A DNA stretch of 49,534 nucleotides, from positions 1-49,534 of the forward strand of contig JAAZLE010000052.1 of NCBI GenBank assembly GCA_012799455.1, given 5' to 3'. The position numbers and the translations under genes are program-made. The notes under the pieces were generated by a model. That model worked only from the letters and a program-made list of their open reading frames with translations, was not told the origin of the DNA and made no database searches. The stretch's first letter is position 1. Every line of letters begins with the position of its first letter. Below are positions 17,301 through 37,126 of this stretch, one piece after another. This DNA is from Clostridiales bacterium (GTDB lineage: Bacteria; Bacillota; Clostridia; Christensenellales; DTU072).

Positions 17301-18070
17301 GCAAGATTCACTATGAAACCGTAAATATTACTTCAAATGTTGTTGTCAAAAAAGCGCGTGCAACTATTAATACAGAACAAATAGAGTTGCCATATTGTTC
17401 GGACTATAATCTAGTTTCAACCCCTCTCAATATTACAGTTATGCACAACAATATAAACATTCCTGGTAGCGCAGGAATAAAAGCTGGGCAAGTATTATTA
17501 TTGGGGACAAATAGTTATGAAGCATTATTTATTCCTGAAGATCAAAATAATTACGAACAAATTGAATTTAATGTTGTTGTTAAAACTTACGTTAATCCTA
17601 CGGACTTTACTTTTTATGGTGGAAACAAGATAGGTGAAAATAAGGAAATTACATTTGAAAATAACACTATAGTTACAGATGCTGACATTTATACTCTTTC
17701 TTTTTCTAAGAGGGAAGGTTTACCAAACATGTATATGAAAGTTAATGGAAAACTTGTTGGCGAATCAAACGAGTATGTTTTCGAACAAAGCGAAGACAAT
17801 GTGAATGTTCAACTAATTGCTGCTGATGGAAGTAATGCGGTTTTGTTTGAAACTACAATAAATGTTCGATTAGCTAATGGGGTTAATGAAATTACACCAT
17901 CCATAGAAGATTCTCCAGTAGATTCGCCTGCAGGTTCAAACGAAATTGCAGTAGAGACAAAAAAATTAACACCGGGAGGCATTGCCGGAATCGTAATGGG
18001 CTCTATAGCATTTATAGCCATTGTCGTGTTAGCTACGATATTATTGATTAAAAAGAGGAAAAAAGTATAA
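11309..18070 (+). CDS. Giant surface protein (2253 aa): GLUG-type N-terminal region, MBG-type repeats, C-terminal TM anchor
   Basis: N-terminal TM (SLIICMLLCLVLFILLMSVYYSFF); GLUG-like segments (GTNSGIVENVKVQGTVNGYKWAGGICNINLGTIKNS; GTLSGVLDGNGYSISNIFG); MBG-like units (HEVFYGDPTPGITSSFEG ... LTFIVNPANL; YNGAAHMLVV ... NAGSYNVTAVISAGVNYNEKEVTSTLIINKL); C-terminal GGIAGIVMGSIAFIAIVVLATILLIKKRKKV. Confidence 0.85.
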   Translation: MIKAISKKTEKSVCSLIICMLLCLVLFILLMSVYYSFFKQANISEAAGDDVFYIQTESDFEAFLLDGLNNNLLSGSPDPLWSVTTGRKYILCNDIYLTRKNVDVTAEKIWISGYFNGEFDGRGHSIIGFEIDNQRAWYTNGEKNIAESNGYALFSVIGKNGCVKNLNIIDANVSFEKSGAAILVGTNSGIVENVKVQGTVNGYKWAGGICNINLGTIKNSLSMARVTVSKCNPFDHNFDNEGFSVAGYITAMNTADVYGDPGGDNAFKLLNNIYHCYNDDALNTQQMGIDVDWSWGGNTVNYVQNKAPQNVQDANPNSYLAEQADKYLIKDYLGVVWYLDHIKTELDKPEPDVNNIKLALLQNDINLYNVEINPIYATFYKEVLSGVSDELGLDLSSKLAKNGFNYYNRDRLELDFYGFEDKERVNVPNDVSVTLNGEGTKSNPYLINSVDDLIVLSYVPFETGLNAYYMLTNNIDLSSYMLAQPLLGTLSGVLDGNGYSISNIFGHSLVASISATGTIKNLRLSGVVSGDYALVTQDNKGTIEGIDVDIEISSTNGVGIAYQNEAIITLSTLRTTGSKGTATMAGNILGNSLISHTRAMALYISDNCQHDVPFIGVDSSSTNRPVEYCTNVNAIWGVSEVKLSNCAWFGAGGVIGSTGESIYSLVQTNNINQSLHDTGWAYPLRFSDLGMFAYQTGLVEDVPELVFPNDNKTYKEVTFLTDTYTAPIVKRYASNPVFYAEMLIDKMAVDSAEWLALENAFSGEGIVIKQRVEDGAYIIGLNEGESNITKLAIEVITKQGLSDDIKTLISSTIFEWDTEGSDLLPRDNAYYFHMYSEYVDISGAFLLNGGSSILNFRRKDYTTNTNSVFYDEIFPSLPTDLVDGDLGFKVAKKDTPSNYLADTIINDLGEYVFSALVEGNTQRTRFYKEYQFTLQKGIFDMTNLDLTSKIGGLNTSVNAPIFNAAIVDYEDALCFNDIKSDLYSKQLTINKLIRSDGSEQSVVSDFMFAGEYKCVLNISSEKYETKEFYISLFVNPKNLTVSSSINSHEVFYGDPTPGITSSFEGVIYNYPVSIHASSTYIAGVSDIGTYEVILVVDKALDTNKNYLNYNISLTPNKLTFIVNPANLDLPYEAFPNKGVDYNGAAHMLVVDRSKVNPATANISVKYRYANIMQTEAFSFINAGSYNVTAVISAGVNYNEKEVTSTLIINKLMVQIKAEDKEIIYGDIPNWSFKVVANEELSALIRAELLKENKSFDYYCEYSSSSPTGWPDKWDANNNCYELPIQIMNYTNISNGVYSNIGISPYNNSSGFLRVRKMNYSPQLVTDKITYTGNMVQLSFKYSLEPVNKQWHSIDASDATNKTPLGQAPVNVSLYEENNVRPQSNKYMLRCDFLGDYKYSPLEGAELIFDIVQAELGLQGLYLISPEGVYETNPINQGKNIGEYMGADWQVYIKNSELPPNLAVEISYGGHTTNGPITFKNAGEYRDISLAISYANDNEIKNYKPFNKHYPEGVIIIPRAGEMSSYKVNNTYTGVEITPSFAPKEGFYVGEDVFDLEAHLDVAIDNYLLYRGDGDINDSANYIECTINPTEIVFPGLYKIRIKNTNPNYRLINLDANNTKEAIVIVTPAEVNLDLTTMPIIEEIYLSQRSSLLQPRLLNITLGGNNIQKEVSLGINSAENAFPIVGLYDIDRAERIYHQFNTGEHVLCISFIITGGENKFKVNPRYISFNWSDVITENVFYKSPELNKFVNGVTTLEYKKGDNSPLVLIPGIGENVDLKNLAPASVSRIRITVDKANIYELSAGDTFMLNASLTDSVNFKLVEEVQTEMNINIQPRTVMYIISKTYMYSGESLPVFCFDAVHFILSADELEVLPADTTIGLIGDEETLSILQIEKSLLDIEFNVIGYAPTLDLAGEFMGEIKLLLNGKVYPNFNLEKEDGVTKEIFVSKHIFNVQIPDVYAEYDGDIKLPEITNLEGASVSHNCFPKEAGSYNLITTISKIHYETVNITSNVVVKKARATINTEQIELPYCSDYNLVSTPLNITVMHNNINIPGSAGIKAGQVLLLGTNSYEALFIPEDQNNYEQIEFNVVVKTYVNPTDFTFYGGNKIGENKEITFENNTIVTDADIYTLSFSKREGLPNMYMKVNGKLVGESNEYVFEQSEDNVNVQLIAADGSNAVLFETTINVRLANGVNEITPSIEDSPVDSPAGSNEIAVETKKLTPGGIAGIVMGSIAFIAIVVLATILLIKKRKKV

Positions 18071-20917
18071 ATGATGGGGATGGAAAGACATAAGAAGTCT
18101 ATATTATGTTCTTTGATTGTAATTTTACTTGCCATCGCAAGTTTTATTTTAATTTCATGTGGAAATCCTTCGCAAGTGCAAGAAGAGAACATAGAGCCAA
18201 AAATTAAAGCTGTACACATCAATAGAGGATATCAAAAGGATAGAGTTACAGCTTTAGTGAAGGAACCGATTTGTTTGGTTAGTGATGCTAACACAAATAA
18301 ATGTGAAAGTATAGACATTATTATAGAGCTTGATAACCCACAAAGAAGAACTATTAATATGGTTTATTTAAACGGCGCTCAATATAAAAAATCCGTTTTT
18401 TCAGAAGGAAGTGACTATCAAACTGTGAATATTAAACAATACCCAATAAACTTAAGTGAAGGGGAGTTTAAAATTAAGATAGATAAGCTATACTATCAGA
18501 CTCCTAATGAGCAAAAGTTAGCCAGTAAAGCAACAAGAGAATTGATTTTTTTAATAAATCCTGAGTTTAATTTAACGCTTGACATAAGTGAGTCCAACAT
18601 GCCTGAAGGTGATAGTGTGATAACGAAAAGAATTAAATATGGTAGCAGGTTTAACATGCCATCTGATTATGAAATGCAAAACGAGGCTGGATATGGGAAA
18701 TTGGGATATACATTTGCAGGGTGGTTTGATGCTCCAAATGGTGAGGGAAATAGATATAATGCACTTACGGATGACTATAAACTAAATAAAGATATAACTC
18801 TATATGCACATTATGATTTAACTTGTGAATACGAGGTTGTGTTAGGTGAAGATGAGGAAATAAGTCATGTAAAAGTTAAATCCATTACTCCAACAGGGAG
18901 AACAAATACAAGCAAAAAAATTTATATATTGGGCGAATATGAAGGTCATGTCGTTAAGGAGATTGGGGAAGAAGCTTTTACAGGGATGACTGTCGCTAGT
19001 TATGAACTACCAAGTAGCATCACACATATTAGTAAAAGGGCTTTTGCGAATGCTATGGGTGTATCTATTGATTTGAAAAATGTGCAACTAATAGGAGAGG
19101 AAGCCTTTTTAAATGTTTCTAGCATTACTTTGCCAAGAAATGGTTTCCCGCCCTCATTAAAGGAAATAGGTTCTCGAGCATTTGTAGGATGTGTATGGGA
19201 TACAACACTATATAATGACGGGGCAACAAGCGAGTCAAAAAACCTAAAAACACTAGTAATACCTGCGAATATTGAAAAGATTGGGAATGAGGCTTTTGCA
19301 CATTCTAAGTTTACTAAAGTATATTTTTGGGATGGAATATATTTAAACCCAGAAAACGCAGGAGCGGACGTGTTTAGCAATTGTCCAGAATTGCAAGTTC
19401 TATACACGGGGGCGAGGTTTATCGAAAATACTAGTACAGTTTCACCTTACGGCGAAAACGGGCTAAATATTATTGGAGATAGGTGGTTTTTCAATAACAG
19501 AAAAATGATTATAGAGACAGGTAGTTCTTCCTCAAGCGTGCTTACAGAAGGCTTAGAGACAATAGGCGAAGCTGCTTTTATGTCGGATGGCACTGGTAGC
19601 AAGGGACGAATGAATGGTATAACCAACATAAGGTTCCCGAACACTCTAAAAGAGATAAAAAAAGAGGCGTTTAATAATACTGCCCTAAGTCAAGCAGAAT
19701 TTGCAGAGAATAAGCAAAGCGAGTTTGAAACGCTTGGTGAAAAGGCATTTCAAGGAACTTTTATTAATAATATGGAGTTTTATAGTTTAAAAACTTTTGC
19801 TTCTACTGCGTTTTTTGCTGCGCCACTAGAGTATTTAATTTTTGATTTACCAGAAGGCGCTCCCATAGTAAAATACTTGCCACACAGTTCTACTTTTACA
19901 TTGAATAAACTTGCTGGCCATGGGATGCCTCGCTATACAAAAATATACGTTCCTGAAGGGCAGGTTGACGACTATAAAGACCTAGCTTCAGAGTGGTGGT
20001 TTAACGACAAAGGGAAGTTAGATGAAAAGTACATACAGCCTATTTTAAGCAAATCTTCTATTTTTACGTTACTTGGTGGAGATAACGTGAAGGTCTCATA
20101 TAATAAACTTGAGCAAGGCGAAGGATTGGTCATTACAAATATGTTTAAGACGGGTTCACTTGTAATTAATGGACGAGTGCAAATACCTGCTAAGATCAAT
20201 GGCCAATATGTGCTCGAAATTGGCGAGTATGTAGTAAGTGATGATGGATTTACAAAGGTATTGTTGCCTAGCAGTATAAAAACAATACACAAGAATGCAT
20301 TTAGGGATGCTGAGAATTTATATCTTGTAAATTGGTATGATAAAGATGATACATCTTATAAAGTGCTAGAGGATATTCAAGACATAGATTTAGAAGAAAT
20401 TGGAGATTCTGCATTTAAATCGACAAGAATTGAAAAATTTCAATCAAACAATAAACTTAAATTAATAGCTAAAAATACATTCCATTCATGTAAAGAATTA
20501 AAATATATTGAATTACTGCATGGAAATCAGATGGAAATTAAAGAAAACGTATTTGCAAATGCGGGAAGCTCTTTGCCAAACAGAGACATGAGGCTTTGGA
20601 TCAATTTAAATGTGATAAGCACCATTAGCACAGGACTATCAAACTCAGCGTTTTTATTAATTTCAAACGTATCCAAAGTTTATATTAATAGTAATTATTT
20701 GAATCACGAAGGGTTTAAATATCCAATAGAGTATGGTTTTTTAGGACAAAGTGTAGGGGAGGTATCAATTTATTTTAGTGAAAGTAGTCAAATCAATTTG
20801 TTTTTAGGGGGGCGCGCGAATACCTACTTTAATCTTGGCAAGTGTGCTTGGGATCTTGATGGAAAACCAAACACCAACGAGGAAGAAATACTATACACTA
20901 AGGGAGTTAGTCCATAG
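18071..20917 (+). CDS. Surface lipoprotein with InlB/Listeria-Bacteroides-type repeat and BspA-like LRR
   Basis: Lipobox ILISC-GN; repeat GYTFAGWFDAPNGEGNRYNALTDDYKLNKDITLYAHYD; LRR_5-like units (VKEIGEEAFTGMTVASYELPSSITHISKRAFANA; LKEIGSRAFVGC; IEKIGNEAFAHSKFTKVYF). ATG directly follows the upstream TAA. Confidence 0.88.
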   Translation: MMGMERHKKSILCSLIVILLAIASFILISCGNPSQVQEENIEPKIKAVHINRGYQKDRVTALVKEPICLVSDANTNKCESIDIIIELDNPQRRTINMVYLNGAQYKKSVFSEGSDYQTVNIKQYPINLSEGEFKIKIDKLYYQTPNEQKLASKATRELIFLINPEFNLTLDISESNMPEGDSVITKRIKYGSRFNMPSDYEMQNEAGYGKLGYTFAGWFDAPNGEGNRYNALTDDYKLNKDITLYAHYDLTCEYEVVLGEDEEISHVKVKSITPTGRTNTSKKIYILGEYEGHVVKEIGEEAFTGMTVASYELPSSITHISKRAFANAMGVSIDLKNVQLIGEEAFLNVSSITLPRNGFPPSLKEIGSRAFVGCVWDTTLYNDGATSESKNLKTLVIPANIEKIGNEAFAHSKFTKVYFWDGIYLNPENAGADVFSNCPELQVLYTGARFIENTSTVSPYGENGLNIIGDRWFFNNRKMIIETGSSSSSVLTEGLETIGEAAFMSDGTGSKGRMNGITNIRFPNTLKEIKKEAFNNTALSQAEFAENKQSEFETLGEKAFQGTFINNMEFYSLKTFASTAFFAAPLEYLIFDLPEGAPIVKYLPHSSTFTLNKLAGHGMPRYTKIYVPEGQVDDYKDLASEWWFNDKGKLDEKYIQPILSKSSIFTLLGGDNVKVSYNKLEQGEGLVITNMFKTGSLVINGRVQIPAKINGQYVLEIGEYVVSDDGFTKVLLPSSIKTIHKNAFRDAENLYLVNWYDKDDTSYKVLEDIQDIDLEEIGDSAFKSTRIEKFQSNNKLKLIAKNTFHSCKELKYIELLHGNQMEIKENVFANAGSSLPNRDMRLWINLNVISTISTGLSNSAFLLISNVSKVYINSNYLNHEGFKYPIEYGFLGQSVGEVSIYFSESSQINLFLGGRANTYFNLGKCAWDLDGKPNTNEEEILYTKGVSP

Positions 20918-21031: not shown

Positions 21032-22663
<1,632 letters not shown>

Positions 22664-22951
22664 CTAATCTTCTACTGTAGCGAGTATATCGCTTTGGCGT
22701 ATAATTATGTATTCTCTTCCATCTATTTTAAATTCTGAGCCGGCATATTTGCTATATAGCACTTTCTGACCAGGCTTAACGATCATTTTAATTTCTTTTC
22801 CGTCAATAACACCGCCATCTCCAACGGCGATAATTTTTGCCACTTGTGGTTTTTCTTGGTTACTTCCTGTTAATATTAAACCAAAGGAAGTAGTTTCTTC
22901 TTTTTCGATGTGTTGTACGACAACTTTGTCAAATAAAGGTTTTAATTTCAT
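22664..22951 (-). CDS. groES: 10-kDa co-chaperonin GroES
   Basis: MKLKPLFDKVVVQHIEKEETTSFGLILTG..., VKPGQKVLYSKYAGSEFKIDGREYIIIRQSDILA; AGAAGGAG upstream on minus strand. Confidence 0.97.
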   Translation of the reverse strand: MKLKPLFDKVVVQHIEKEETTSFGLILTGSNQEKPQVAKIIAVGDGGVIDGKEIKMIVKPGQKVLYSKYAGSEFKIDGREYIIIRQSDILATVED

Positions 22952-22980
22952 ATCAGTTTACTCCTTCTAGATTTTGTTTG

Positions 22981-23007
22981 CTAGCAATCTATGTTGCAGA
23001 GTGCTAA
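22981..23007 (-). promoter_or_regulatory. CIRCE operator (HrcA site) upstream of groES
   Basis: CTAGCAATC-N9-GAGTGCTAA; right arm perfect, left arm 7/9 versus TTAGCACTC-N9-GAGTGCTAA. Confidence 0.85.
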
Positions 23008-23014
23008 CTTTTAG

Positions 23015-23043
23015 ATTTTAACACAGCAAAAAACAATTTGCAA
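23015..23043 (-). promoter_or_regulatory. groESL sigmaA promoter
   Basis: Minus strand TTGCAA-17 nt-TAAAAT, directly upstream of CIRCE. Confidence 0.7.
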
Positions 23044-23258
23044 GTAAATATTTACTGTTGGGTTTATGCTTATACTAGCATATATCAAATATGTAGAAAC
23101 GTAAATTAATTTGTCACATATACGGCGTTTTAAATTTTTTGGTGCTTTTCAATATATTTAAACGGCATTCAGCCTAACTAATTGATGTGATTAATATTGG
23201 ATTTGATTGTTTTTTATGGTATCATTTTAAAGAAATTTACTCTTAGGATGGTATGCAT

Positions 23259-23720
23259 ATGAACAAATGGGATAAGCGATTTATGGAGTTGTCATACGTA
23301 GTAGGAAGCTGGTCTTCGTGTTACAAGGATGATAGACAAGTAGGTGCTGTTATTGTTAGGAATAAACGTATTTTGACCACTGGGTATAATGGTGCACCAA
23401 GCGGCATTACGAGTTGTAAAGACAGGGGGGAGTGCTTGCGTGTTAAAAAGAATATCCCTTCAGGTACTTGCCATGAAATTTGTTATGCAGTTCATGCAGA
23501 ACAAAATGCAATTATTCAAGCTGCTAAGATTGGCGTTTCCGTTGAGGATGCAACCTTGTATTGTACTCATCAGCCGTGTAATATTTGTGCAAAAATGATT
23601 ATTAATAGCGGAATAAAACGTATCGTATTTGATAATGGATATCCTGATAGTTTCTCAATGGAAATGTTCAAAGAAGCTAATGTGATAGTTGATAAATATA
23701 GTGACTTGCTTAAGAATTAG
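23259..23720 (+). CDS. dCMP deaminase (ComEB-like)
   Basis: HAEQNAIIQAAK, TLYCTHQPCNICAKMIINSGIKRIVF, GYNGAPSGITSC. Confidence 0.92.
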   Translation: MNKWDKRFMELSYVVGSWSSCYKDDRQVGAVIVRNKRILTTGYNGAPSGITSCKDRGECLRVKKNIPSGTCHEICYAVHAEQNAIIQAAKIGVSVEDATLYCTHQPCNICAKMIINSGIKRIVFDNGYPDSFSMEMFKEANVIVDKYSDLLKN

Positions 23721-24031: not shown

Positions 24032-24061
24032 TTGACATGCGCACGTGTGTTAATGTATTAT
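24032..24061 (+). promoter_or_regulatory. Consensus sigmaA promoter of the giant MBG gene
   Basis: TTGACA (24032-24037), 18-nt spacer, TATTAT (24056-24061). Confidence 0.65.
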
Positions 24062-24089
24062 GTTTTTAATTGAAGTGAGGAATGTGTTC

Positions 24090-27000
24090 ATGGTTGCTAC
24101 CAGGAGTAAGAAGGTTAAAAATATTTTAATTTTACTTGTTGGGCTTGTTTTTATTGCAAGCATATTACTTCTCTCAATCATTCTCTTTCCGAATCAAAAT
24201 GAAACTATTGTAGGGTCTGCTGCTGTTGGATATAAAACAGATAAGGCTGCTGATTTAGACTCTGGGATTGTACAAGGATATCTAAAACCTGGGTTGAATT
24301 CCCTTAGCTCGGCGGCGCATTTTGCGGATAATCTCTCAAATAATTATCCTCTTTCAGGCACGACCGAAGAAGAGTATTTTGCTAAAGATTTTTACTGCGA
24401 TGAAAATTCATCAGCACGCTTTAGCGCTGAGTCGTTACAGTTTAAAAATGGTTCTGTAGGTACGTTGCTAAAAGTCAATAATGGAACCTATCCAGCAAAT
24501 GCTCTTGCACAAGCTCTAAGCAGTAATGAATTTATAATTAAGATAAGGTTTGAGTGTGAGATATTAATTTCAGGAACTGGTCCTTCAAACGCGAATTTAG
24601 AAACAGTGATTTATTGGTATCCAGCAGGAATCGGCACGAGTGAATATGCAACAAAAACTTCTTTAATACCAATGAGTTCAGGAAGTCAGTTTAGTCATTT
24701 TGTTGATTTGGGCGGGGATGATGCTGATAGCGGTGGTTCTTACTATGATGCAAATAATGTTTTATGTACTAACACAAACATTATACATGACGCTGCTTGT
24801 TTTTTAATCACGATGAAAGATCCTAACAACGCATCAGATGGTTTTGATATATTAATTAGGTCGCCTCGCGTCTATATTGATGTAGAGGCTGTAGGGCTTT
24901 CTATCAACATAGATATGTATGCGATAGAAATTTCTGGCGAAAATAGAGAAGCGACAGCCATTTCAAGAATCAAAGATGTTAGTTCAGATGGTCCACAAAT
25001 CCTAAGTAATACTTTTGTTAAGGCTGGAGATCAACTCGATCTTACAGCGCGTGTTGACAAGCAAGGTTTGCCATATGTATTTCCTACCTATTATCCTGCT
25101 CTATTTTATCCCGTGGATAACAACTTCGATGATAGAACTTGTATAGATTGGCATACGTACAATACAAACTATGATGAAACGATAGGCTCTTACTTGGAAG
25201 CTATCCCTTTACCAGAATCTGCAAGCCCTTCGGAACAAACGGCGAGAAAGTCTGGATATAGTGTTTCATTCCAAGTAAAAGATGGAGTTGGAAATACTCC
25301 TCAAGTTAAATTGCTACCTCGTTTACCAATAAGTATTGAAAGAGGGAATGTTACGTATTACGAATATAGTGTTGGAAATATTCCTAACATTGAGATTGTT
25401 GTAAAAGTTGATAATGTGTCCCCTTCGATCCCAATCATTGATGAAGATAGTACTTTCGGAAAAACAATCAAGAATAAAAGATGGTATACAACTTCTAGAA
25501 CGATGCATTTAGAATACTCTTCAGAGTTAACAACTGACTTTATAAATAACTCGAGAGAAAAGGTTTATGCATATGTTTTAAGCAGCGAGGTAAGTACGTT
25601 CGACGTATCCTCTTGCGATTTTTCTTTGCCTAATGATCATATGGATAGTAGGTATCCTTTTTATGGGGTGGGATCGGGTATTGATGAATTCGCAGATAGG
25701 CAAGATTTGGGTAATTTTTCGAACATCATGAATTTTGCAGAAAAGTTTGCGTTAAACTTTAGTACGCCTGGAGAGTACACATTAGTCCTTGTTGCAGTAG
25801 ACAGGGCAGGAAACGTTTCTTCCCCTATGATATATCACAGGGGCAATAACCAAACTGTGAGAGTGGACGATACAACACAGGAAGTAGGGTTTAACCTAAT
25901 GTATGGTACGACAGCGTTTATTTCTGACTATGTTTCAGTTATTGGTAATGTAACCATTTTCTTGGGTGAGAAGTGGCATGAAAAAGATGATGAAACACAA
26001 AAATGGACATGTACTGCTGCAGAGAGCGTTACATCTGGGGATGGGGTAGTTCAGAAAAGAGTAGAACCATCAAAGCGTGATATACCTGTAACGTTACGAC
26101 TTACGATGCCTGTAGCTGCTTACAATAACTACAGGCTAGTTATGTATAGTAACCAACCTGCAATGGAAGGTATGGTTTCAGATTCTCCAACATTTAAGTT
26201 AGGTCGTGATAATGCTCGCATCTATGAAATTACATTCTTTACAAACGATGAAATTTGGAATAGCGGACAAAGTTCTGGAATGGTTACAATGTTTTTTAAT
26301 AAAAGAGTTGATTTGGGCTTGATTACAACAGACTTTACTTATTCGAAGGACCAAATGGGAAATGGAAATATAGTTGCCTTAGATAGTTTTTTTGAAGCCT
26401 ACTTCCCTTATGACCCGAATACAGGGGTAAAAACTTTTCCAGAAAGACAGCCGGACATTGATATTACTTATTATGAGCATCATGAATACCAAGTGTATAT
26501 TGCTACGACTGTAAATAATGGACAAATAGTTACCACAACGGGTGGATACATTAATTACAAAGGGACTGAATACCACGTTCCAAATGATTATGATTTGCTA
26601 GCAAATACGAGAGTATCAAACATTGCCTTTATACCGGGATTGAATGGTGACTCTGGAACGCGTTTATACACTTTAAAAAGAAGAGAGCTTACGCCTGTGA
26701 CAGGTTACAAAGTATACACCGCAGAAGGGTTTATGCCAGAATTTGGGAAAAACATAGGTTTTATAGATGCTGGGAAATATGTCTATAAGGCAACAGTTGA
26801 TGTGTCTGGCGACACCAATTTATTCGGGGAAAGTGTAAATATTTTTGAAATTAAGAAAGCTACTCCAAATGTTTTTGACCTCCATACTAAAAACACATTG
26901 TTTTATGGGGACAGTTTAAATCAACTTATGTTTGGGAGTTCGTATGAAAATGGTTCGCCAATTACAGATCCAGGGTTTGAATATGCTTCAGAAAACTATT

Positions 27001-30000
27001 TTTTATCATCAGCAGGGGTGTATGGATATTTTGAGATAACATCACCACAACATGGAACAGAAACATATAACAAGCCTCAAGTCAGTTCATCTATGCCTAT
27101 TACGGTACGTTTTCATCCAATTGAAGTAATTGCTGGTGTGACCAATGAAATAATGAATGACAACTGGGATACAGTATTTTCTAGATACTATGATAGGGTG
27201 ATGGTTAATCCTGTCGGTCCTGTTTTTGAGTATACGTTGAAACCAGGGAAAAGTCATAGTAAGAATTATGAAACTCAGTTAATTGAGATGAATATAGAAA
27301 TAAAGCATGCAAAGGCTTACATTGATGTTGACTATTCAACAATTAGAAAAGTATACAACGAAGAGCCACAAGGACTGACGGCAAAGGCTTATTTGGATGT
27401 TGACAAAACCATAGAAGAATTTAATGTGCCATTTATCATAACCTATGTGGATAAAACGACAGGAATCCCACTTCAGGGGAAACCTGAATCAGCGGGAAAT
27501 TATCAAGCGAAGATTGATATCGATAAAACTAGCTCAAACTATGAAAATGATGTGTCTGTGTATCAAGATTTTATAATTGATAAGAAAGAATTAAATGTTT
27601 ATCCAATTGCTCCTGAAGGGGAACTAGGATTGGGAGATTATGTTTATGAAGAACTTCCGACAACTGAACTTTTAGGTCAGTATCAGTTTGATCATAAATT
27701 TACATTCATATACGGATACTTAGAAGCACCATCTTATAAGTTTGGCGTTTATGAAAACGAAATATTTGAAGAAATTACTGGCTTATATGTAAATCATTCC
27801 TTCTCTAAATATAGGGATGAAAATGGACAGTTTTTAGATCCGTTTGGAGATTGGGTTACCCAGACCATTCCTGGTGTTTTGCTTAGTGATATGTTATCTG
27901 CAGGTTGGCATATTGCCGAGATAACAATTGAAAACCAAAATTATTCAGGAGGATTATACGCAATATTTGTTATAGAGCAAGGCACTCCTCTTGGAAATCT
28001 TTTAACTGTAAATCTGCCTCAATTCAAGCGGACATACTCCGTTGTTGACTACGATGGTACGCCAAAGGGAGTAATTGGTCATTTAGAATATGGTCAAACG
28101 CTAGCAGCCGGTCTGCCGATTATGTTGCAAGGCTTAAGTACTAGCGCGTCTTACAAATATCGTAACAACGTAACGAAAGAGATCCAAGGTAGGTTTTATT
28201 TTGAATCTGAAACGGAATATTATTTGAGACAAGCAAGTCAGTCACAAGCTTATTTCGATGTGAATGGACAAAGAATTTTAGATGTTAACTATGGGACCGG
28301 CAATATGACAAATAGAGTAATCCCACATGCAGTGACGCTTTATTGGGAAGCAGGGGAGTACATAGGCGCCGAATTTATACCCAATAATAATTTTGGAATA
28401 GTTTCGTTTTCTACAGATATTGTTGTAGCTAGAGCAAGGGCTAATGTTGACAATATCTATATGAGCAGTATCACATACGGGCAAAAATTGTTAAATTCAG
28501 ATTTTGTAGGTGATATTGTTTCTAACGGAAAAATATTAGAACGCAATGTTCATTATTCACTGAATTTAATTACAAATAATCAAACGGTTTATAATGGGGG
28601 TACGCACAACGTAAGATATTCATTAAATCCGATTGGAGAGTACTTACGTCAATATCTGCCTCTAAATGACCTATATGCTCAAATTAACGTAATTAGTAGA
28701 GAAATAACAATATCATTTCCAGCGGATGTTAAAAGAAGTATTGAAATAGAGGAGTATGATAGTGGCTCGCCATTAAATCTTCCTATTGGTGTTGTTTACG
28801 AATATGGCTCATTGTATTCTCGGCCGACAACAATAGTAAAAACAACAGATACTGAGGAGATAGTTACTAATATTCAATTAGAATATCTTTACTTTAAAGA
28901 TAAACCAAATGATGGTTATGTTCTTCAAAGCGGTGAAAGTTACATGGATGGATATGAGAACTATGTTCGACTTCCTCGCATTTCTAGCACTACGGAAAGC
29001 GGAAGATATTATATGTTAGTCAGGCCTTTGGGTAACAATTATATTGGAAGTGTTTTTGAAGATTTTTATGTCATTAAAGCAGACTTGTATTATACGCAAC
29101 CTAATTTGCCAAGTATAGAATATGGTCAGTGTTTAGGTGATTATGTTTTTTCACAAATATTGGTACAAAATCGAACAAACACAATTAGCATTTCTGGTAG
29201 CTTTTCATTTGTTGATGAGGAACTAATGCCAGAAGTAGGGTCTACTGACAGTTTTTTAGTCAAGTTTATACCCAGAGCGGGGAGTACATTGCTGTATAAT
29301 AATTTTAAACCTATAGTTTTTCCATTAGCCATAAACGTTTTGAAAAAGACGCTAGTAATTTCAGTAGCAGATAATACACAATATGTATTTACTGGCGGTC
29401 CTAAAGCGATTATGGCAACGGTATTAGATCCAGAAAATCTTGGAGTATCATTGCCATTAGTTTATGAGTATTTTACTGTTGATGGATTGCCTCCTACTCA
29501 AGTTGGAATCTATAATGTAAAGGTTTCTATAGATAACTCTGTAGAGAAATTTAGAGGATTTAAGTCAGTAACTGTAGAAATTACTAAATCTCCAGTTACT
29601 ATTGATACGACAGATGTTGAAAAAGAATATACAGGATTACCTCAAGAACTTATCCCTAACTATTCATTTGTACCAGGAACTAATGTCAGAGACTTTATTG
29701 TAAATGATATCGAAGGTTTTAGAATCAGATATTATGACCATAATGGGTTGGAAATGAATGTTTTACCTAAGAAGGTAGGGAAATACAGAGCAAATGTGCA
29801 GTTAGTTGCAGCAAACTATAAAGCACAAGAAACTAACATTAATTTTTACATAAAACCATCAATAAAAGAAATTAGAAATCTAGAACAAACATATGTTCCC
29901 GTGGTTTTAGACCCCAATGCTCCTCGTGTTTTACCTGTTGAGCTTATATTCAACAAGGTTTTAATTATGCATTTGGATGAATATGGAAACGAATACGTTG

Positions 30001-33000
30001 CTGAAGAAAATCATCAATCAGTACAATATACAGTGTTTTACCGATATCTATCAAGCGCTGGCATTCAACCCGAATTTTCATCCAATTTAGATATAAATAA
30101 TGCAGGTGTATATGATCTGGAGATAAGGTTTTCAGAAAATGGATATAATAAAATAATAACAGGGGAACAGTTAATTGTTGCTAAGAGATCTGTTTCAGAA
30201 TACTTCCAAACAAGCCTTCAAAGTAGGTATGTAACAACTTATACTGGATTTACGCAGCCTCTTACTAACATCTCGTTACCTGCGGATATACAAAATGCAA
30301 CAATATATTATAAACAATATGAAGATAGCGGGGATTTTGTTAATACGGTCGCACCAACTCAGTCGGGATTATATAAAGTAAGGATTGTATTAGAGAGTGA
30401 AAATTATGAAGGTATAGGCGAAACTGAATATGAAATTAAGAAAGCAAAATTGACAATTGTTAGTACGCCTACTACAGAAAAAATAGAATTTAGTACAGAA
30501 AAAGAAAATGTATTATTCAAAGAAGGGACAGGAGAAGTTAGATTTGCAACCACAGGAGAGGTTTTAAGCAATAGAGGAACATGGTCGATTGAAACTGACA
30601 TAACTTCTCCTTTATGTACGGCTGGCAGTTCTTATTCTGTTGTTGTTCGTTTTACACCGGATGAAACGATTAATACAAACTTTCTTGCAGTGGAAAAAGA
30701 GATGTCCATAAGTATAACAAAAAGGGACATTAGTGAGTTTATCCAAATTGAAGAGCAGTCATTAAATAAAATTTATTCTGGAAGTCGTCAAGGGGCAAGA
30801 GCTATTATTGCGGAAGCTGCGAATATAATCCCTGGATACGGCAGAATTAAACTGACATATCAATACAACGGAGTAGTTGAAGATCCGAAGGATGTAGGAG
30901 TCTATAGTTTAGTAGTTAAGATAGTGGAGGATAATAATTACGTAGGAACAACAACTGCGAGAAGTTTTAAAATAACTATGGCTGAACCGTTAATAGAAAG
31001 CCCGCCTCGTATTAGAGATGTTAACAAGGGGGATACCCTAGTCAATGGGGATATTATTCCAAATACTGGACACGTGGTTAATCCAATAGATAATACGATA
31101 AAAGTTCAAGGTAGTTTTCAATTTGATTCGTCAAACGTTATGAATGAGGCTAACATTCATAAGGTTTTAATCCATTTTATTCCAAATGAATCGCTTAGTT
31201 ATAAAAGCATCTTATTCGAAGTGGATGTGAAGGTTATTGGTTTGGATTTAAATGTGACTTCGGTTGAGGTTGTCACCATACAAGATGTAAACGGATACGA
31301 TATAAGTTATCCTTATGGCACAAAATTATATGATACAGAATTGTCAATTACCCCCATGATTGATGGTGTTCCTTTAAGTGAAGATGTCGGAGTTTGGGAA
31401 TGGGTTGACAATAATGAGATCATAGATGTTGGAGGTGTCGCCAGATATAGGATTATTCCTACAGACCTTTCAACTTACAACATTTACGAAGGTTCTGTTA
31501 TTGTACCCTATATTCATAAGGCTGACATGCAAATCAACATGGAAGCCTCGAACATAACTATATATGCGGGCGAGGAGATTGATTTTTTCGCCCCAGAAGA
31601 ATCGCTAAATATTAATTTTATTGTGAACAACGCGCATAATTCAAATCTTGTAGTCAATCCTAAAATTGAAATATCAGACCAATATAGTGTTATTGAAGAT
31701 ATTAATAGTTTCAGTTTATCTGAAGATTATTACTATGATACTTTTACAGGTGGAAAATACTTAAGAAATTCAAATGGAATAGCTACAATCAAATTTAAGC
31801 TTACTAATGCTAATTATAATGAATTGATTGTTGAGTTCTCAGTAAGAGTGTATAAGCTTGTTGGAAGTAGTAGCTTTGAAGCAACACGTATTAGGAAATG
31901 TTATGACGGAGAAATGACAAAAATTAGTGATTTTAACATACGAGTAAGTGATACGGAAATTATTATAGATGAAAACAAATTGTTTATTTCAGATATTCAC
32001 AATTTTGCGGGCGAAAAAGTTACTGATTTTACATCTACCGCATTAACTCCAGGCATGTACAGTGTAACAGTTGAAATTAATGATATTTGGTATGCAGGAC
32101 AACATACTTTCAGTTATGAAGTGATAAATAACGATATCACAGAGTTTATGTCGATAAATCATACTACACGCGTTTATGCAGATAATCAACCTACTGCAAA
32201 AGCGAGCTTCGGTCAGTTTTATGATAACGCATTATTAACAACAGGGTCTGTAATCGAATATAAGTATTGGTCACAGGATAAGACGATTGACTTAGGTTAT
32301 CTTCCACCGAGAAATGCAGGTAATTATTGGTTAGAAGTTTCAATTGATGCAGAAGATATGTATTTTAGCGCAAGAAAGATAGTGCCATACACTATACTTA
32401 AAAAGGAGCTATCCCTAGCGCTTAACGAGTCATATGTGTTTAGGTATGGTCAGAGTTACGCAGTCGAACCTGAGATAGGAAACGGCTTGTCAGTAAATAA
32501 TTGTAATGTGTCATACTATCTTATTGGAGAGTCATTACCACTACTGACAAAACCAACAAATGTTGGCAGATACAGAATTAGATTTTCAATTAATCATCAA
32601 AACTACTTTGGTGCAAAAGAAGTTATGTTGACGATAAATCAAATAGCATTAGAGTTAAATGTCTCTCCGCAAATTGATGCATTAGAATACGGTACAAAAC
32701 TAAATTCGGCGGGCTTTAGTGGTGGTGAAGTAATTAGTGCTGATATGGAAGCAATTAGAGTTGTGGGACAATTTGTTTTTGTTGATCCCGATTTAACGCC
32801 GCCAGTAGGAGTTCAAACCGTTCAGATTCGTTTTGAGCCAACGAACAAAAACTACGCACCACTTACATTCTCCAGTGAAATTACGGTTAAGAAAAGAAGA
32901 GCGAGTATTCATTTCGTACTGACAAGTATGGAATATAATGGTTTACCTCAATTACCATTGATTGCAACGGATCCAGCGCTCAACATAAATGTTAGATACT

Positions 33001-34985
33001 CGATAGAGCAAGATGGATTAACAGTTACCAACGCCACAGAAGTGGGTATGTATAAGATCATTGCAACAATTCATGACGAAAATTATGAAGGTAGAAGTGT
33101 TTTAGATGGGTTTCAAATTGTAAAAGCAAATATAAAATTAAGTGAGAGTGTTATGCCAAACGCGTCTGCCATTGAATATAATCAAGCACTAAATAAGAGT
33201 TCATTGCTAGGTGGAAAAATAGTATATGTAAGTGGCAAAGAGCCAGTTGCAGGAATATTTAGGTATAAGAATCCAGATCTTATGCTTGGCCCTGTAGGGA
33301 ATTATACAAATATTGGATTTGTTTTTATTCCAGTTGATACTAAAAACTATGAGGTTTTTGAAGGCTCTGTTACGGTATCTGTAACAAAGGCAAATGCCTC
33401 AATCCAGGCTTTTGATACAGAATTTGTTTATGGAGACCAAATAAAGCGACCTAGATTTGTAACAAGTCCTGCTAATTTAACTGTACTGAATCAAGACTTT
33501 GAGGATAGCATGTACAATATGAAAGATGTAGGAATATATGTTTTTAACGCAACGATAAGCGATCACAATTATACTGGTCATATCACTTATAATCTGGTCA
33601 TAACAAAGAAAGTGTTAGAAATTCAGTTTTACCAAGGAACCGCACCCATAGACAAGTATATTGTGTCATATGGACAAAGAATTGAGCCGATAGCAAGAAT
33701 CAAACCTAGTTCTTTAGCTGCAGTTGATGCTCCCTATAGGGAGGAAATAGAAAGGCACATTATGTATTACTATAAGGGTGTTAACGGCGATATGCAATTC
33801 ACGGTGAATAGACCATATAATATTGGAGAGTACTTGGTAGTAGCGCGTATGGAAAGTCACAATAACTATAGGTTGGACGATAGTATTGCTACTTTAAGAT
33901 ATGAAATTACCAGAGCAAGAGTTGAAAGGCTTGATTTTGACCATACTCTTCTCTCAACGCAAGTATACGGCAATGTTACAATGCCATCTGTTCTTGTAAC
34001 ACCCGCTTCGGTTAGATATAAAATATACTTCCCTGGCTCTTCGGGACTCCCGACAACAGCAGGGACTCATAGTGTTAGGGTGGAAATTATAGATGAAAAC
34101 TATATATTTGAATCTAGAGATGCGGTGTTCAAAATACTACCACTTGAGTTAAATGTTGAAAATATCAAAGTACAAGACAAACCGGTGGACGGATTAAGTG
34201 ATGTAAAGGTCACAGGTGTTCTTAGCGGTGTAAGAGAAAAGGATGAGGTTTTTTTAACTCTAACAGCACATACAGATAAATGGGCTACAAATGTTGGGCA
34301 ACATGACGTTATTATTTCGAGTTGGAAACTTACTGGATTGCATGCTTCAAACTATGCGGTTAGAGAACCTATATATTCGCTTAAAGTAAATATCACAAAT
34401 AAAGTCATAAAGGATGAAAGTTCGGAATCATACGTAACTAGTTCAACGGGGTTTGACGGAAATATAACAGTTTCATTTGGTGAAGTATATGATTCAGTTA
34501 ATAGAACGAACTTTATCACAAGTCTAATAGGTCAAAAAGCGATAGTACAGAGTATTTCGATAAAAGAAAATGGTTTGGATACTGTTTTGAGTGAAAAAGT
34601 GAAGTATTATGTAAAAATACCTGACGCCTATTTAGGTGCACAAAACTTAGAAGTGAAAGGTTTGGGAGCGCTATCTAATCAGTCAATTCAGTTTACACAA
34701 GAAGGAGATTTTATCACATTTTATGCAGATACATCAGGCGAGATTTTATTCTATGTAGATGACTTCCCTTACTGGATTATTATTGTTGTGAGTGTGGTTT
34801 TAATCTTAATTATTGGTGCAATATTGGTTTTCATATTATTACCTAAAAAGAAGCGTAAAGTTACGATAACGTCGGATATGCGTAAAGCGCACGAATGGGT
34901 GAGACGCGCGGAAGAATTTGAAAACAAAGCGGAAATGGATAAGCAAATCAGAGATCGAGAGAAGAGACGCAGATGGAAAATGTGA
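24090..34985 (+). CDS. Giant MBG/Ig-like repeat surface protein (about 3630 aa) with N- and C-terminal TM segments
   Basis: N-terminal TM (NILILLVGLVFIASILLLSIILF); Ig-like regions; long array of roughly 80-aa units ending NY-x(n)-[IV]-x-K, e.g. NYEGIGETEYEIKKAKLTI, NYEGRSVLDGFQIVKANIKL, NYTGHITYNLVITKKVLEI; C-terminal TM WIIIVVSVVLILIIGAILVFILL with a charged tail. The ORF opens at 24060; start moved to 24090 (MVATRSKKVKN) on promoter grounds. Confidence 0.85.
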   Translation: MVATRSKKVKNILILLVGLVFIASILLLSIILFPNQNETIVGSAAVGYKTDKAADLDSGIVQGYLKPGLNSLSSAAHFADNLSNNYPLSGTTEEEYFAKDFYCDENSSARFSAESLQFKNGSVGTLLKVNNGTYPANALAQALSSNEFIIKIRFECEILISGTGPSNANLETVIYWYPAGIGTSEYATKTSLIPMSSGSQFSHFVDLGGDDADSGGSYYDANNVLCTNTNIIHDAACFLITMKDPNNASDGFDILIRSPRVYIDVEAVGLSINIDMYAIEISGENREATAISRIKDVSSDGPQILSNTFVKAGDQLDLTARVDKQGLPYVFPTYYPALFYPVDNNFDDRTCIDWHTYNTNYDETIGSYLEAIPLPESASPSEQTARKSGYSVSFQVKDGVGNTPQVKLLPRLPISIERGNVTYYEYSVGNIPNIEIVVKVDNVSPSIPIIDEDSTFGKTIKNKRWYTTSRTMHLEYSSELTTDFINNSREKVYAYVLSSEVSTFDVSSCDFSLPNDHMDSRYPFYGVGSGIDEFADRQDLGNFSNIMNFAEKFALNFSTPGEYTLVLVAVDRAGNVSSPMIYHRGNNQTVRVDDTTQEVGFNLMYGTTAFISDYVSVIGNVTIFLGEKWHEKDDETQKWTCTAAESVTSGDGVVQKRVEPSKRDIPVTLRLTMPVAAYNNYRLVMYSNQPAMEGMVSDSPTFKLGRDNARIYEITFFTNDEIWNSGQSSGMVTMFFNKRVDLGLITTDFTYSKDQMGNGNIVALDSFFEAYFPYDPNTGVKTFPERQPDIDITYYEHHEYQVYIATTVNNGQIVTTTGGYINYKGTEYHVPNDYDLLANTRVSNIAFIPGLNGDSGTRLYTLKRRELTPVTGYKVYTAEGFMPEFGKNIGFIDAGKYVYKATVDVSGDTNLFGESVNIFEIKKATPNVFDLHTKNTLFYGDSLNQLMFGSSYENGSPITDPGFEYASENYFLSSAGVYGYFEITSPQHGTETYNKPQVSSSMPITVRFHPIEVIAGVTNEIMNDNWDTVFSRYYDRVMVNPVGPVFEYTLKPGKSHSKNYETQLIEMNIEIKHAKAYIDVDYSTIRKVYNEEPQGLTAKAYLDVDKTIEEFNVPFIITYVDKTTGIPLQGKPESAGNYQAKIDIDKTSSNYENDVSVYQDFIIDKKELNVYPIAPEGELGLGDYVYEELPTTELLGQYQFDHKFTFIYGYLEAPSYKFGVYENEIFEEITGLYVNHSFSKYRDENGQFLDPFGDWVTQTIPGVLLSDMLSAGWHIAEITIENQNYSGGLYAIFVIEQGTPLGNLLTVNLPQFKRTYSVVDYDGTPKGVIGHLEYGQTLAAGLPIMLQGLSTSASYKYRNNVTKEIQGRFYFESETEYYLRQASQSQAYFDVNGQRILDVNYGTGNMTNRVIPHAVTLYWEAGEYIGAEFIPNNNFGIVSFSTDIVVARARANVDNIYMSSITYGQKLLNSDFVGDIVSNGKILERNVHYSLNLITNNQTVYNGGTHNVRYSLNPIGEYLRQYLPLNDLYAQINVISREITISFPADVKRSIEIEEYDSGSPLNLPIGVVYEYGSLYSRPTTIVKTTDTEEIVTNIQLEYLYFKDKPNDGYVLQSGESYMDGYENYVRLPRISSTTESGRYYMLVRPLGNNYIGSVFEDFYVIKADLYYTQPNLPSIEYGQCLGDYVFSQILVQNRTNTISISGSFSFVDEELMPEVGSTDSFLVKFIPRAGSTLLYNNFKPIVFPLAINVLKKTLVISVADNTQYVFTGGPKAIMATVLDPENLGVSLPLVYEYFTVDGLPPTQVGIYNVKVSIDNSVEKFRGFKSVTVEITKSPVTIDTTDVEKEYTGLPQELIPNYSFVPGTNVRDFIVNDIEGFRIRYYDHNGLEMNVLPKKVGKYRANVQLVAANYKAQETNINFYIKPSIKEIRNLEQTYVPVVLDPNAPRVLPVELIFNKVLIMHLDEYGNEYVAEENHQSVQYTVFYRYLSSAGIQPEFSSNLDINNAGVYDLEIRFSENGYNKIITGEQLIVAKRSVSEYFQTSLQSRYVTTYTGFTQPLTNISLPADIQNATIYYKQYEDSGDFVNTVAPTQSGLYKVRIVLESENYEGIGETEYEIKKAKLTIVSTPTTEKIEFSTEKENVLFKEGTGEVRFATTGEVLSNRGTWSIETDITSPLCTAGSSYSVVVRFTPDETINTNFLAVEKEMSISITKRDISEFIQIEEQSLNKIYSGSRQGARAIIAEAANIIPGYGRIKLTYQYNGVVEDPKDVGVYSLVVKIVEDNNYVGTTTARSFKITMAEPLIESPPRIRDVNKGDTLVNGDIIPNTGHVVNPIDNTIKVQGSFQFDSSNVMNEANIHKVLIHFIPNESLSYKSILFEVDVKVIGLDLNVTSVEVVTIQDVNGYDISYPYGTKLYDTELSITPMIDGVPLSEDVGVWEWVDNNEIIDVGGVARYRIIPTDLSTYNIYEGSVIVPYIHKADMQINMEASNITIYAGEEIDFFAPEESLNINFIVNNAHNSNLVVNPKIEISDQYSVIEDINSFSLSEDYYYDTFTGGKYLRNSNGIATIKFKLTNANYNELIVEFSVRVYKLVGSSSFEATRIRKCYDGEMTKISDFNIRVSDTEIIIDENKLFISDIHNFAGEKVTDFTSTALTPGMYSVTVEINDIWYAGQHTFSYEVINNDITEFMSINHTTRVYADNQPTAKASFGQFYDNALLTTGSVIEYKYWSQDKTIDLGYLPPRNAGNYWLEVSIDAEDMYFSARKIVPYTILKKELSLALNESYVFRYGQSYAVEPEIGNGLSVNNCNVSYYLIGESLPLLTKPTNVGRYRIRFSINHQNYFGAKEVMLTINQIALELNVSPQIDALEYGTKLNSAGFSGGEVISADMEAIRVVGQFVFVDPDLTPPVGVQTVQIRFEPTNKNYAPLTFSSEITVKKRRASIHFVLTSMEYNGLPQLPLIATDPALNINVRYSIEQDGLTVTNATEVGMYKIIATIHDENYEGRSVLDGFQIVKANIKLSESVMPNASAIEYNQALNKSSLLGGKIVYVSGKEPVAGIFRYKNPDLMLGPVGNYTNIGFVFIPVDTKNYEVFEGSVTVSVTKANASIQAFDTEFVYGDQIKRPRFVTSPANLTVLNQDFEDSMYNMKDVGIYVFNATISDHNYTGHITYNLVITKKVLEIQFYQGTAPIDKYIVSYGQRIEPIARIKPSSLAAVDAPYREEIERHIMYYYKGVNGDMQFTVNRPYNIGEYLVVARMESHNNYRLDDSIATLRYEITRARVERLDFDHTLLSTQVYGNVTMPSVLVTPASVRYKIYFPGSSGLPTTAGTHSVRVEIIDENYIFESRDAVFKILPLELNVENIKVQDKPVDGLSDVKVTGVLSGVREKDEVFLTLTAHTDKWATNVGQHDVIISSWKLTGLHASNYAVREPIYSLKVNITNKVIKDESSESYVTSSTGFDGNITVSFGEVYDSVNRTNFITSLIGQKAIVQSISIKENGLDTVLSEKVKYYVKIPDAYLGAQNLEVKGLGALSNQSIQFTQEGDFITFYADTSGEILFYVDDFPYWIIIVVSVVLILIIGAILVFILLPKKKRKVTITSDMRKAHEWVRRAEEFENKAEMDKQIRDREKRRRWKM

Positions 34986-36655
34986 GCAACAAGAAGGATT
35001 TTACAACACTTGTTAGTTATGTTTTTTGTATGTTGTTAGTTTTCGTCGCTACTATGCTATGTTCTGTTATCAACCGAAGCTTTGATTTTAACGCACTGGC
35101 TGAAGCTAACATTGTTTTAAGACTAGATAATAAAGAAAACAAAGTTTTTAATGCTTTAACAGGAGCTACATATTCCATAATATCGAATGATAAAACAATT
35201 GATATTTTGATTGCATTTGATGATGATGCAGATAATTGGATCATTTGTTCAAAAAACAACCAAGAAGAGATTCCATATATTTCTATAAAAGATTTAGAAA
35301 AGAACAACCCTGAAATATACCAAAGGCCGACCATTAATAACCAAGGTCTCTTTGAATCAAAAATTACCTTATACTCAAATGGTTTTTTATACATAAAATG
35401 TTTGTATGTAGAAGATGGGGAGAATAAATTTATTGAAAAATCTGAGAGGATTTCAGTCATAGATTGGGTAGCTCCTAATATTGTAAAAGATAGTGTTTTG
35501 GTTTATGCAGATGCTCGCAGTGTAAGTTTTTATGTCAAAGTTACGGATTATTTTCCGTGGCTTAGATATGAAACTGCGAAGAGTGGTATAAATAAAGCAG
35601 AGTTTTTCTTTATAGATAGAGAGTTAACTGAATATATGCAGCAAAAAGAAAGCCCTAGTGACGAATTTGATGTTTCGTTTGATGATTTAGAACAAGAAAT
35701 CGGATACGCTTCGATTAAAGTTCAAACAGCGGTCGCGGATGATGATGTATTAGACGTTCAATTTACGGAAACGGGGTATTATTATTTGGCCCTTGAAGAT
35801 AAGGTAGGCAATATGGCTATTTATTTATTAGGTCATTACAAGAAGCCTAAAGGTGCAGATTTTAAAGTTAAATACCCTTTTGGAGAGTTGGTAATATCTG
35901 AATATTTATTACAGGCTGAGAATTATATCGCATACTATGAAGGTAGGGAAGATTTTGCGCAAGTTAGAGTTGAAGAACTGAAGGAAGCTTTAAGTAATGT
36001 GTATTATGTTTTCTCAACGGAAGAAGATGAAACAATAAAAAGAACAGCATATGAGAGTTTTAATATAGTTAAATATGAATTTGAAAAAGCTACAGAGGGA
36101 GTTATTCTTGTTTTAGACAGTGTCGGTAGTGAAAACAATTTAGGAACTATAATTAAATGTGTTAATTTTAATGAAAAAATAGTAGAAACAGTATTAGGGG
36201 ATGAGGTTACCTTAATTGTAAAAACGTCAAGTTTAAACGCAGAAGACATTTTAGTTGATATATCATCATTAAAAGATAAAGATTACAATTATGTTATCAA
36301 GATCGAATATGAACTTTTAAAAAATGATGAGCACATAGTTCCTAATGTGCCTTTAGTGTTTAGTATAGATTATAATTTAACAATTAAAGATTTATTAGTT
36401 ATTTCTACAATAGACGGTTTAAATGCTAAATTATACGAGGTCGAACGAGGTTTACAGTATTTCAAACTTGAAAGCAATACGGATAAAAGAGAGTTTTATG
36501 TGTTTTATAATGTGGATACAAAAGTTGATAATTTAAACCCTATTAAACCTATATGGATTGTAGTAATAGGGATATATGTTGGGCTTTCAGCTGTAGTAAC
36601 ATTATTGTCCGCAGTTTTTAGTTTACGGAAACAGAAGAAGAGTACGAACGTTTGA
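34973..36655 (+). CDS. Uncharacterised bitopic surface protein, partner of the giant MBG protein
   Basis: 560 aa, N-terminal TM (LVSYVFCMLLVFVATMLCSVI), C-terminal TM (IWIVVIGIYVGLSAVVTLLSAVFSL) with basic tail; its ATG overlaps the giant ORF's 3' end by 13 nt. No family recognised. Confidence 0.8.
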   Translation: MENVSNKKDFTTLVSYVFCMLLVFVATMLCSVINRSFDFNALAEANIVLRLDNKENKVFNALTGATYSIISNDKTIDILIAFDDDADNWIICSKNNQEEIPYISIKDLEKNNPEIYQRPTINNQGLFESKITLYSNGFLYIKCLYVEDGENKFIEKSERISVIDWVAPNIVKDSVLVYADARSVSFYVKVTDYFPWLRYETAKSGINKAEFFFIDRELTEYMQQKESPSDEFDVSFDDLEQEIGYASIKVQTAVADDDVLDVQFTETGYYYLALEDKVGNMAIYLLGHYKKPKGADFKVKYPFGELVISEYLLQAENYIAYYEGREDFAQVRVEELKEALSNVYYVFSTEEDETIKRTAYESFNIVKYEFEKATEGVILVLDSVGSENNLGTIIKCVNFNEKIVETVLGDEVTLIVKTSSLNAEDILVDISSLKDKDYNYVIKIEYELLKNDEHIVPNVPLVFSIDYNLTIKDLLVISTIDGLNAKLYEVERGLQYFKLESNTDKREFYVFYNVDTKVDNLNPIKPIWIVVIGIYVGLSAVVTLLSAVFSLRKQKKSTNV

Positions 36656-36799
36656 TACGCTGCAATTTACATGCCTTATTTCCAGTTAAGATATTCCTTT
36701 AAAAACAGGTCTATATTTTAGATTAATTATGCGTTTTGACATATTATTTTAAGGCGATACAAATAATAAAAACTTTGAATAGTTTATAAATTGAAATGT

Positions 36800-36828
36800 T
36801 AGACAACTGTTTTGTCGTGTGGTATACT
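36800..36828 (+). promoter_or_regulatory. Promoter of the tRNA-Cys/tRNA-Leu pair
   Basis: TAGACA-17 nt-TATACT just upstream of tRNA-Cys. Confidence 0.6.
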
Positions 36829-36837
36829 ACTCAAGAT

Positions 36838-36911
<74 letters not shown>

Positions 36912-36919
36912 AGATAAAT

Positions 36920-37006
36920 GCCGTTGTGGCGGAATAGGCAGACGCAAGGGACTTAAAATCCCTCGATGGCAACATCGTGCCGGTTCAAGTCCGGCCAACG
37001 GCACCA
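36920..37006 (+). tRNA. tRNA-Leu(TAA), CCA encoded
   Basis: GCCGTTG ... anticodon loop CTTAAAA, variable arm gatggcaacatc, CAACGGCACCA. Confidence 0.95.
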
Positions 37007-37014
37007 TATAAAAT

Positions 37015-37045
37015 ACCGCAATCTTAGGATGGTTGCGGTATTTAT
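37015..37045 (+). terminator. Terminator after the tRNA pair
   Basis: ACCGCAATC-ttaggat-GGTTGCGGT followed by atttatt (weak T tract). Confidence 0.6.
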
Positions 37046-37126
37046 TGTAATGAATTGACTTTATTAATTTACTTGTAATAAGTTAATAGTTATAATAAAG
37101 ATATCACCGTAATGAGAGGTATAAAT

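Follow-up and report, generated by a model that had tools for sequence, protein, structure and literature searches.

Do a giant repeat protein and the membrane protein whose gene begins inside its last codons form a unit, and if so, what would such a pair do at the cell surface? The window, by which we mean the whole stretch of 49,534 nucleotides that was analysed (G000:C111), belongs to a genome of 1.62 Mb in 130 contigs. An earlier note on this DNA had described one ORF filling nearly 11 kb and encoding about 3630 residues, with a 560-residue ORF starting within its end, and both observations were borne out. The longest ORF of the giant spans 24060-34985 on the plus strand (3641 aa), and the partner ORF overlaps it by 13 nt (34973-34985), with the partner ATG at 34973 and the giant TGA stop at 34983-34985. 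Judged from the start region, translation of the giant from ATG 24090, giving 3631 rather than 3641 aa, is likelier, because the -10 box of a promoter-like site overlaps the ATG at 24060 and because a GTGAGGA precedes the ATG at 24090. Promoter-like sites overall were no more numerous than in shuffled sequence, and the site at 24032, the position from which the earlier note counted the region, is suggestive at most. The features assigned to the giant are as follows.

24032-24061, plus strand, promoter-like site TTGACA-N18-TATTAT, 11/12 consensus matches, the best in the region
24090-34985, plus strand, giant coding sequence from its probable start ATG 24090, 3631 aa, with full-length colinear orthologs
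24090-24224, plus strand, putative signal peptide with n- and h-regions and the cleavage motif GSA|A, assigned from the motif
24237-24911, plus strand, N-terminal jelly-roll head in the AlphaFold2 model, diverse among genera
24912-26756, plus strand, non-repeat Ig-like segments with a VD.AGNVS motif; InlK_D3 and Big_13 match below cut-off
26757-34139, plus strand, 25-unit array made up of 16 MBG units (M) and 9 copies of a second repeat (t), from ortholog-trained profiles and Pfam
32643-32894 and 33135-33389, examples of the second repeat
34146-34364, plus strand, YDG domain (PF18657), over the Pfam cut-off
34365-34739, plus strand, family-wide membrane-proximal domain (profile A1, in 36/40 family genomes)
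34743-34856, plus strand, predicted C-terminal transmembrane (TM) segment, from hydropathy and a conserved DFPYW boundary
34857-34982, plus strand, predicted basic cytosolic tail ending KRRRWKM, whose last codons also encode the partner start

Each protein had been read as having an N-terminal and a C-terminal TM, with a charged tail on the giant. The C-terminal TMs and the basic tail of the giant (about 42 residues) are retained here, but the N-terminal segments are probably cleavable signal peptides, given that a simple motif scan found an AxA-type cleavage motif behind the hydrophobic core in 24/24 full-length giants and 23/23 partners. Since both N-terminal segments read in this way, giant and partner are both probably type I single-pass proteins. 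The DFPYW boundary at the C-terminal TM of the giant is kept in eight aligned orthologs; an LPXTG-type sortase motif is absent ahead of this TM, where the segment reads ...FYVDDFPYWIIIV..., and Pfam scans of giant and partner found neither SLH domains (at E<=10) nor a peptidoglycan-binding domain. The recurrent RRW[RK] in the giant tail was not upheld as a motif kept at the protein level, since the ATGGA start of the overlapping partner accounts for its last residues at least.

A profile search, which the earlier note had proposed as a check, matched the giant to MBG_3 (PF18887) in seven stretches (E 7e-38, 129 bits against a cut-off of 25) and to one YDG domain (PF18657; E 7.3e-6, 26.6 bits against a cut-off of 25), and assigned the partner to no Pfam or NCBIfam family. 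The array, put by eye at about 23 MBG-like units, is indeed an MBG array, but it numbers 25 units by profiles trained iteratively on these same orthologs and mixes two repeat types in the order MtMMttMtMMMMtMttMMMtMtMMM. The second repeat is about 80 aa long, with the consensus YG..L....GG...G.F.F.DP....G......F.P.....Y, and four t units scanned one by one against Pfam gave zero matches. The same repeat recurs in several giants of the source genome though it has no Pfam model. About 850 residues without repeats precede the array and hold the non-repeat Ig-like region (24912-26756) that had been noticed earlier. In an AlphaFold2 model of residues 50-640 (pLDDT 76.5), the N-terminal part adopts a jelly roll for which Foldseek returned CBM16/CBM22 modules (best prob 1.00; TM score about 0.46-0.54 on the target, rmsd about 6-8 A), a match at the level of fold only (E about 4e-4 to 2e-3, 5-10% identity), jelly rolls being common. 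Among orthologs, this head is poorly conserved and the Ig-like part that follows it better conserved, and few parts of the giant are as well conserved as its C-terminal domain. No sequence match to solved structures was obtained for the giant.

The partner is organised as follows.

34973-36655, plus strand, partner coding sequence, 560 aa
34973-35107, plus strand, putative signal peptide with the cleavage motif ALAEA|N, assigned from the motif
35108-35896, plus strand, ectodomain predicted to consist of Ig-like beta sandwiches bearing a D.VGN motif (AlphaFold2)
35897-36091, plus strand, predicted helical segment of three helices (model residues 309-322, 330-349 and 353-373, pLDDT about 90)
36092-36544, plus strand, predicted membrane-proximal beta domain (AlphaFold2 model)
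36545-36643, plus strand, predicted C-terminal TM helix (AlphaFold2 model)

The AlphaFold2 model of the partner has a mean pLDDT of 79 and begins with a signal helix. It had been considered that this protein might turn out to belong to a well-characterised family; however, the partner of the window gave nothing over cut-off in Pfam and NCBIfam, and 21 aligned partner orthologs gave no consistent Pfam match. A profile search of the PDB returned mainly TM-helix matches, and Foldseek (PDB and viral models) returned only generic Ig/FN3 folds. By these comparisons the partner is an uncharacterised protein family, outside the characterised families tested. We do not claim homology between the membrane-proximal domain of the partner and that of the giant, because the profile match between them (prob 96 with the TM included) falls to prob 25 once the TM is removed. 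The source genome contains no second full-length copy of the partner.

To place the locus among its relatives, we used a family sample of 40 genomes from 11 genera (Clostridia; a little-studied gut and digester lineage). Relatives in Clostridia include Firmicutes bacterium ADurb.Bin080, Candidatus Stercoripulliclostridium and 'Christensenella sp. UBA3944', and those with titles shown are nearly all metagenome-assembled. The giant is found in 37/40 family genomes and in all 11 genera: its C-terminal profile (A1) matches 36 of the 40, in 10/11 genera, and the 37th, G039, supplies the 11th genus with a gene cut by a contig end. No genome showed more than one intact copy; second matches were few, and those were weak and incomplete. 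The three genomes in which no giant was found are G001, where none lies beside a cpn60 that sits at a contig end, G028, whose contig ends 1.3 kb from cpn60, and G029, in which cpn60 was likewise not found. On the strength of what was seen in these genomes and in G039, we rejected co-loss as evidence. In samples from beyond the family, comprising 396 genomes of its order and 391 of its class, the giant gave weak matches that were confined to its membrane-proximal/TM part, and nearly all matches to the partner profile were to its TM region. As far as these genomes sample it, both proteins appear to be restricted to this family.

Within the family, the partner lies directly downstream of the giant in 31 of the 32 genomes with a readable position, 25 of them read from fetched DNA (among these G017, whose pair falls on two contigs with a stretch in common) and 6 judged from match coordinates that adjoin (G013, G026, G027, G031, G032 and G037); the count omits G002, G006, G016, G036 and G039 (unreadable or unexamined) and the three genomes with no giant. 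The one clear exception is G018, which has a giant without an adjacent partner. A contig scan with the window partner alone as the query found nothing, because the partner is too divergent for peptide patterns, while the C-terminal profile of the giant succeeded. Partners from genera g2 and g3, most of which the first profile missed, are homologs of the other partners (hhalign prob 99.9, E 3e-32 over 423 columns; hmmsearch E 4e-32 to 2e-7). The earlier note had called the partner an orphan coupled to the giant and had recognised that the pairing might not recur in relatives; it does recur, so the coupling stands while the orphan does not, the partner being a family-wide orthologous group. The note had also thought the pairing undescribed, and we found no description of giant or partner in the literature searched; the papers on MBG domains in that literature are few and none of them treats either protein.

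The junction itself varies. It is a 13-nt overlap in g1 and in most of the g10 genomes that were read, with the ATGGA start inside the ...W[RK]x codons of the giant; the overlap is 4 nt in G015 and in the g2 genomes G007 and G010, and 17-32 nt in g7/g8. Most other genomes have a gap of 2-29 nt, and since these include several of g2, g3 and g9, coupling by overlap is not universal. In G011 the partner start that was found, 256 nt downstream, is doubtful, and in G004 the partner frame is truncated.

Full-length giant orthologs are colinear with the giant of the window over their whole length at 18-48% identity, and measure 3335-3826 aa, with G018 longer at 4278. The 25-unit string changes little from genus to genus: at most a few units escape detection or are extra, chiefly in G018, G005, G008 and G017. 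Values of dN/dS run from 0.06 to 0.16 in the giant and from 0.17 to 0.18 in the partner, with the estimates for G034-G036 and G019-G020 less reliable at dS above 2. By these ratios both genes are under purifying selection, and a chance ORF is excluded because the orthologs are colinear at full length and dN/dS is 0.06-0.18. Across 10 genomes, giant and partner distances are correlated (r 0.87, 0/5000 permutations), above the correlations of the two with cpn60 in the same number of genomes (r 0.63 and 0.66), a comparison limited by the slower evolution of cpn60.

The surroundings of the pair are partly shared. A divergent cpn60 and a dCMP deaminase gene (21032-23720) adjoin the giant, with which they are syntenic in many genomes of the family (19 and 13 loci). 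On the 3' side of the partner lie tRNA-Cys and tRNA-Leu genes, followed by LemA and DUF2207 genes; the tRNA genes (36656-37111) occupy the place of a TM-anchored metallophosphoesterase of 1257-1269 aa in the sister genomes G023 and G024, and this interval is a possible site of insertion or loss. Behind the partner in g4, g5, g7, g8, g9 and g10 stand two polytopic genes (about 280 and 300 aa, 5-6 TMs; A5 and A6), which, where they occur in the family, nearly always come as a pair; an example, L013:9566-11310, has no usable Pfam match. The pair lies at a different locus in g2 and g3 and is missing from 3/3 genomes of the window's genus, and on both grounds we rejected it as an obligate component. 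In several genera, though not in the window, a protein of 250-330 aa (MDYSPYY...) with one TM is encoded upstream of the giant (L014:8187-8984, L021 in G015, L022/L017 in G025, and L096:3093-4082); it has a SPOR-like stretch by eye, without Pfam confirmation.

The source genome carries further MBG-rich giants on contigs C32, C43, C45, C53 and C60, with frames of about 1,600 to 3,850 aa or more. Because none of the at least seven other giants inspected is followed by the partner, although several have a C-terminal TM, the partner does not accompany MBG giants in general. A second giant in the window (11309-18070; 2253 aa, a C-terminal TM and 5 MBG-like units) abuts an unrelated 948-aa LRR_5 gene without a gap, the two spanning 11309-20917, and homologs of these two sit together, as a pair, on the opposite side of cpn60 in G025, G030 and G038. 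A control giant of 2796 aa from the same genome is less widespread than the giant of the window, its long matches falling chiefly in g1, g5 and g10; it is conserved too, and conserved giants are therefore a family trait and not unique to this one.

On balance, we favour the reading that giant and partner make up a two-protein surface assembly, put together jointly at the membrane, in which the giant is a fixed-length stalk tipped by a diverse jelly roll; we hold this reading to be somewhat probable. Both proteins would be exported by Sec and lose their signal peptides, and a single C-terminal TM, with a basic tail inside, would keep each in the cytoplasmic membrane. The giant would form the stalk, with 25 beta-type units standing on the conserved membrane-proximal domain and a length estimated to be of the order of 100 nm if each unit contributes about 4 nm. 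The non-repeat Ig-like region and the jelly-roll head would lie at the far end, where the head probably binds a glycan or envelope polymer; the adhesive or contact-dependent action suggested in the earlier note is conjectural. The partner, which would be made together with the giant, via overlapping genes in many genera, probably sits beside the membrane-proximal base of the giant and may assemble or stabilise it, or pass on a signal. The polytopic proteins may join the assembly in six genera, while the window's genus would work without them. A more specific proposal, which we regard as possible but tentative, is that the 25-unit beta stalk and its co-translated partner, with the two polytopic proteins in most genera, constitute a family-defining apparatus that serves as a molecular ruler and sets reach.

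Alternatively, the giant could be a scaffold of the envelope, in a cell wall or S-layer-like coat, and not an adhesin; its length would then fit the envelope, and the partner would anchor or space it. A single copy, near-universal presence in the family, a frozen unit number and purifying selection are how a core structural component behaves, and Embp/Ebh, a giant with a potential C-terminal TM, is linked by a review to cell-wall roles in S. aureus (PMC4330918). However, neither giant nor partner carries an SLH or peptidoglycan-binding domain, and a diverse head resembling carbohydrate modules better suits ligand binding, so that we consider the scaffold rather unlikely.

It is also conceivable that the giant is a stand-alone adhesin and the partner a functionally independent surface gene on a shared transcript. 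Small overlaps occur between many non-interacting bacterial genes, G018 has a giant with no partner nearby, and a giant-partner complex is itself something that we infer. Yet adjacency holds in 31/32 genomes although the next gene varies (polytopic pair, phosphoesterase, tRNA genes and others), and the divergence of the two proteins is correlated, which makes independence improbable. Giant repetitive surface proteins are often variable or of toxin type, but a repeat-variable, phase-variable or contact-dependent toxin-type protein is very hard to credit here: genera hardly differ in the number and order of units, the C-terminus of the giant is a conserved anchor with a short basic tail and not a variable toxin, toxin and immunity domains are absent from the Pfam/NCBIfam scans, the partner, the would-be immunity gene, is itself conserved and probably exported, and no features specific to contact-dependent inhibition were seen at the locus.

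Giant repeat surface proteins are usually regarded as variable, accessory adhesins. Here, a near-universal, single-copy giant keeps its repeat count and order while its sequence drifts to about 20% identity, and it has a dedicated partner. It thereby becomes testable whether selection can act on a bacterial surface stalk for exact length. The giant also offers a marker gene for an uncultured gut and digester lineage, and the locus adds an uncharacterised protein family, that of the partner, and a repeat unit not registered in Pfam.

Among known systems, close parallels are Embp of Staphylococcus epidermidis and Ebh of S. aureus, giant exported surface proteins that combine a long rod of repeats with a potential C-terminal TM; a review indicates cell-wall roles for Ebh in S. 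aureus, where its repeat number varies among strains (PMC4330918). The giant described here likewise reads as a long rod with a C-terminal TM, and is presumably exported, but Embp/Ebh are three times longer, are built of alpha-helical FIVAR and FIVAR-GA repeats, and have no co-encoded partner described (PMC4330918). Pfam found no FIVAR, FIVAR-GA or DUF1542 repeat in the giant or in any partner. Giant1-5 of Apilactobacillus kunkeei are surface proteins of 3,000-8,000 aa encoded as a gene cluster in a small genome, for which sequence exchange and recombination are reported; they share with the giant a signal peptide, an N-terminal head and a long repeat segment, but have beta-solenoid heads (Giant1-4), mostly helical repeats, and C-terminal DUF5776/SH3b-like wall-binding domains where the present giant has a TM (PMC12863079). 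The giant is, like Embp/Ebh, a TM-anchored giant repeat protein, but it belongs neither to the Embp/Ebh family nor to the Apilactobacillus giants. SiiE and other BIg-repeat adhesins also present a long array of beta-domains, and the N-terminal model of the giant has a weak Foldseek match to SiiE; in contrast to SiiE, the giant would be held in the membrane by its own TM. With MBG-domain surface proteins (MBG_2 PF18676, MBG_3 PF18887, YDG PF18657) the giant shares MBG_3 and YDG, but MBG is a building block and not a system, and it is the fixed 16+9 architecture together with the partner that is specific to this family.
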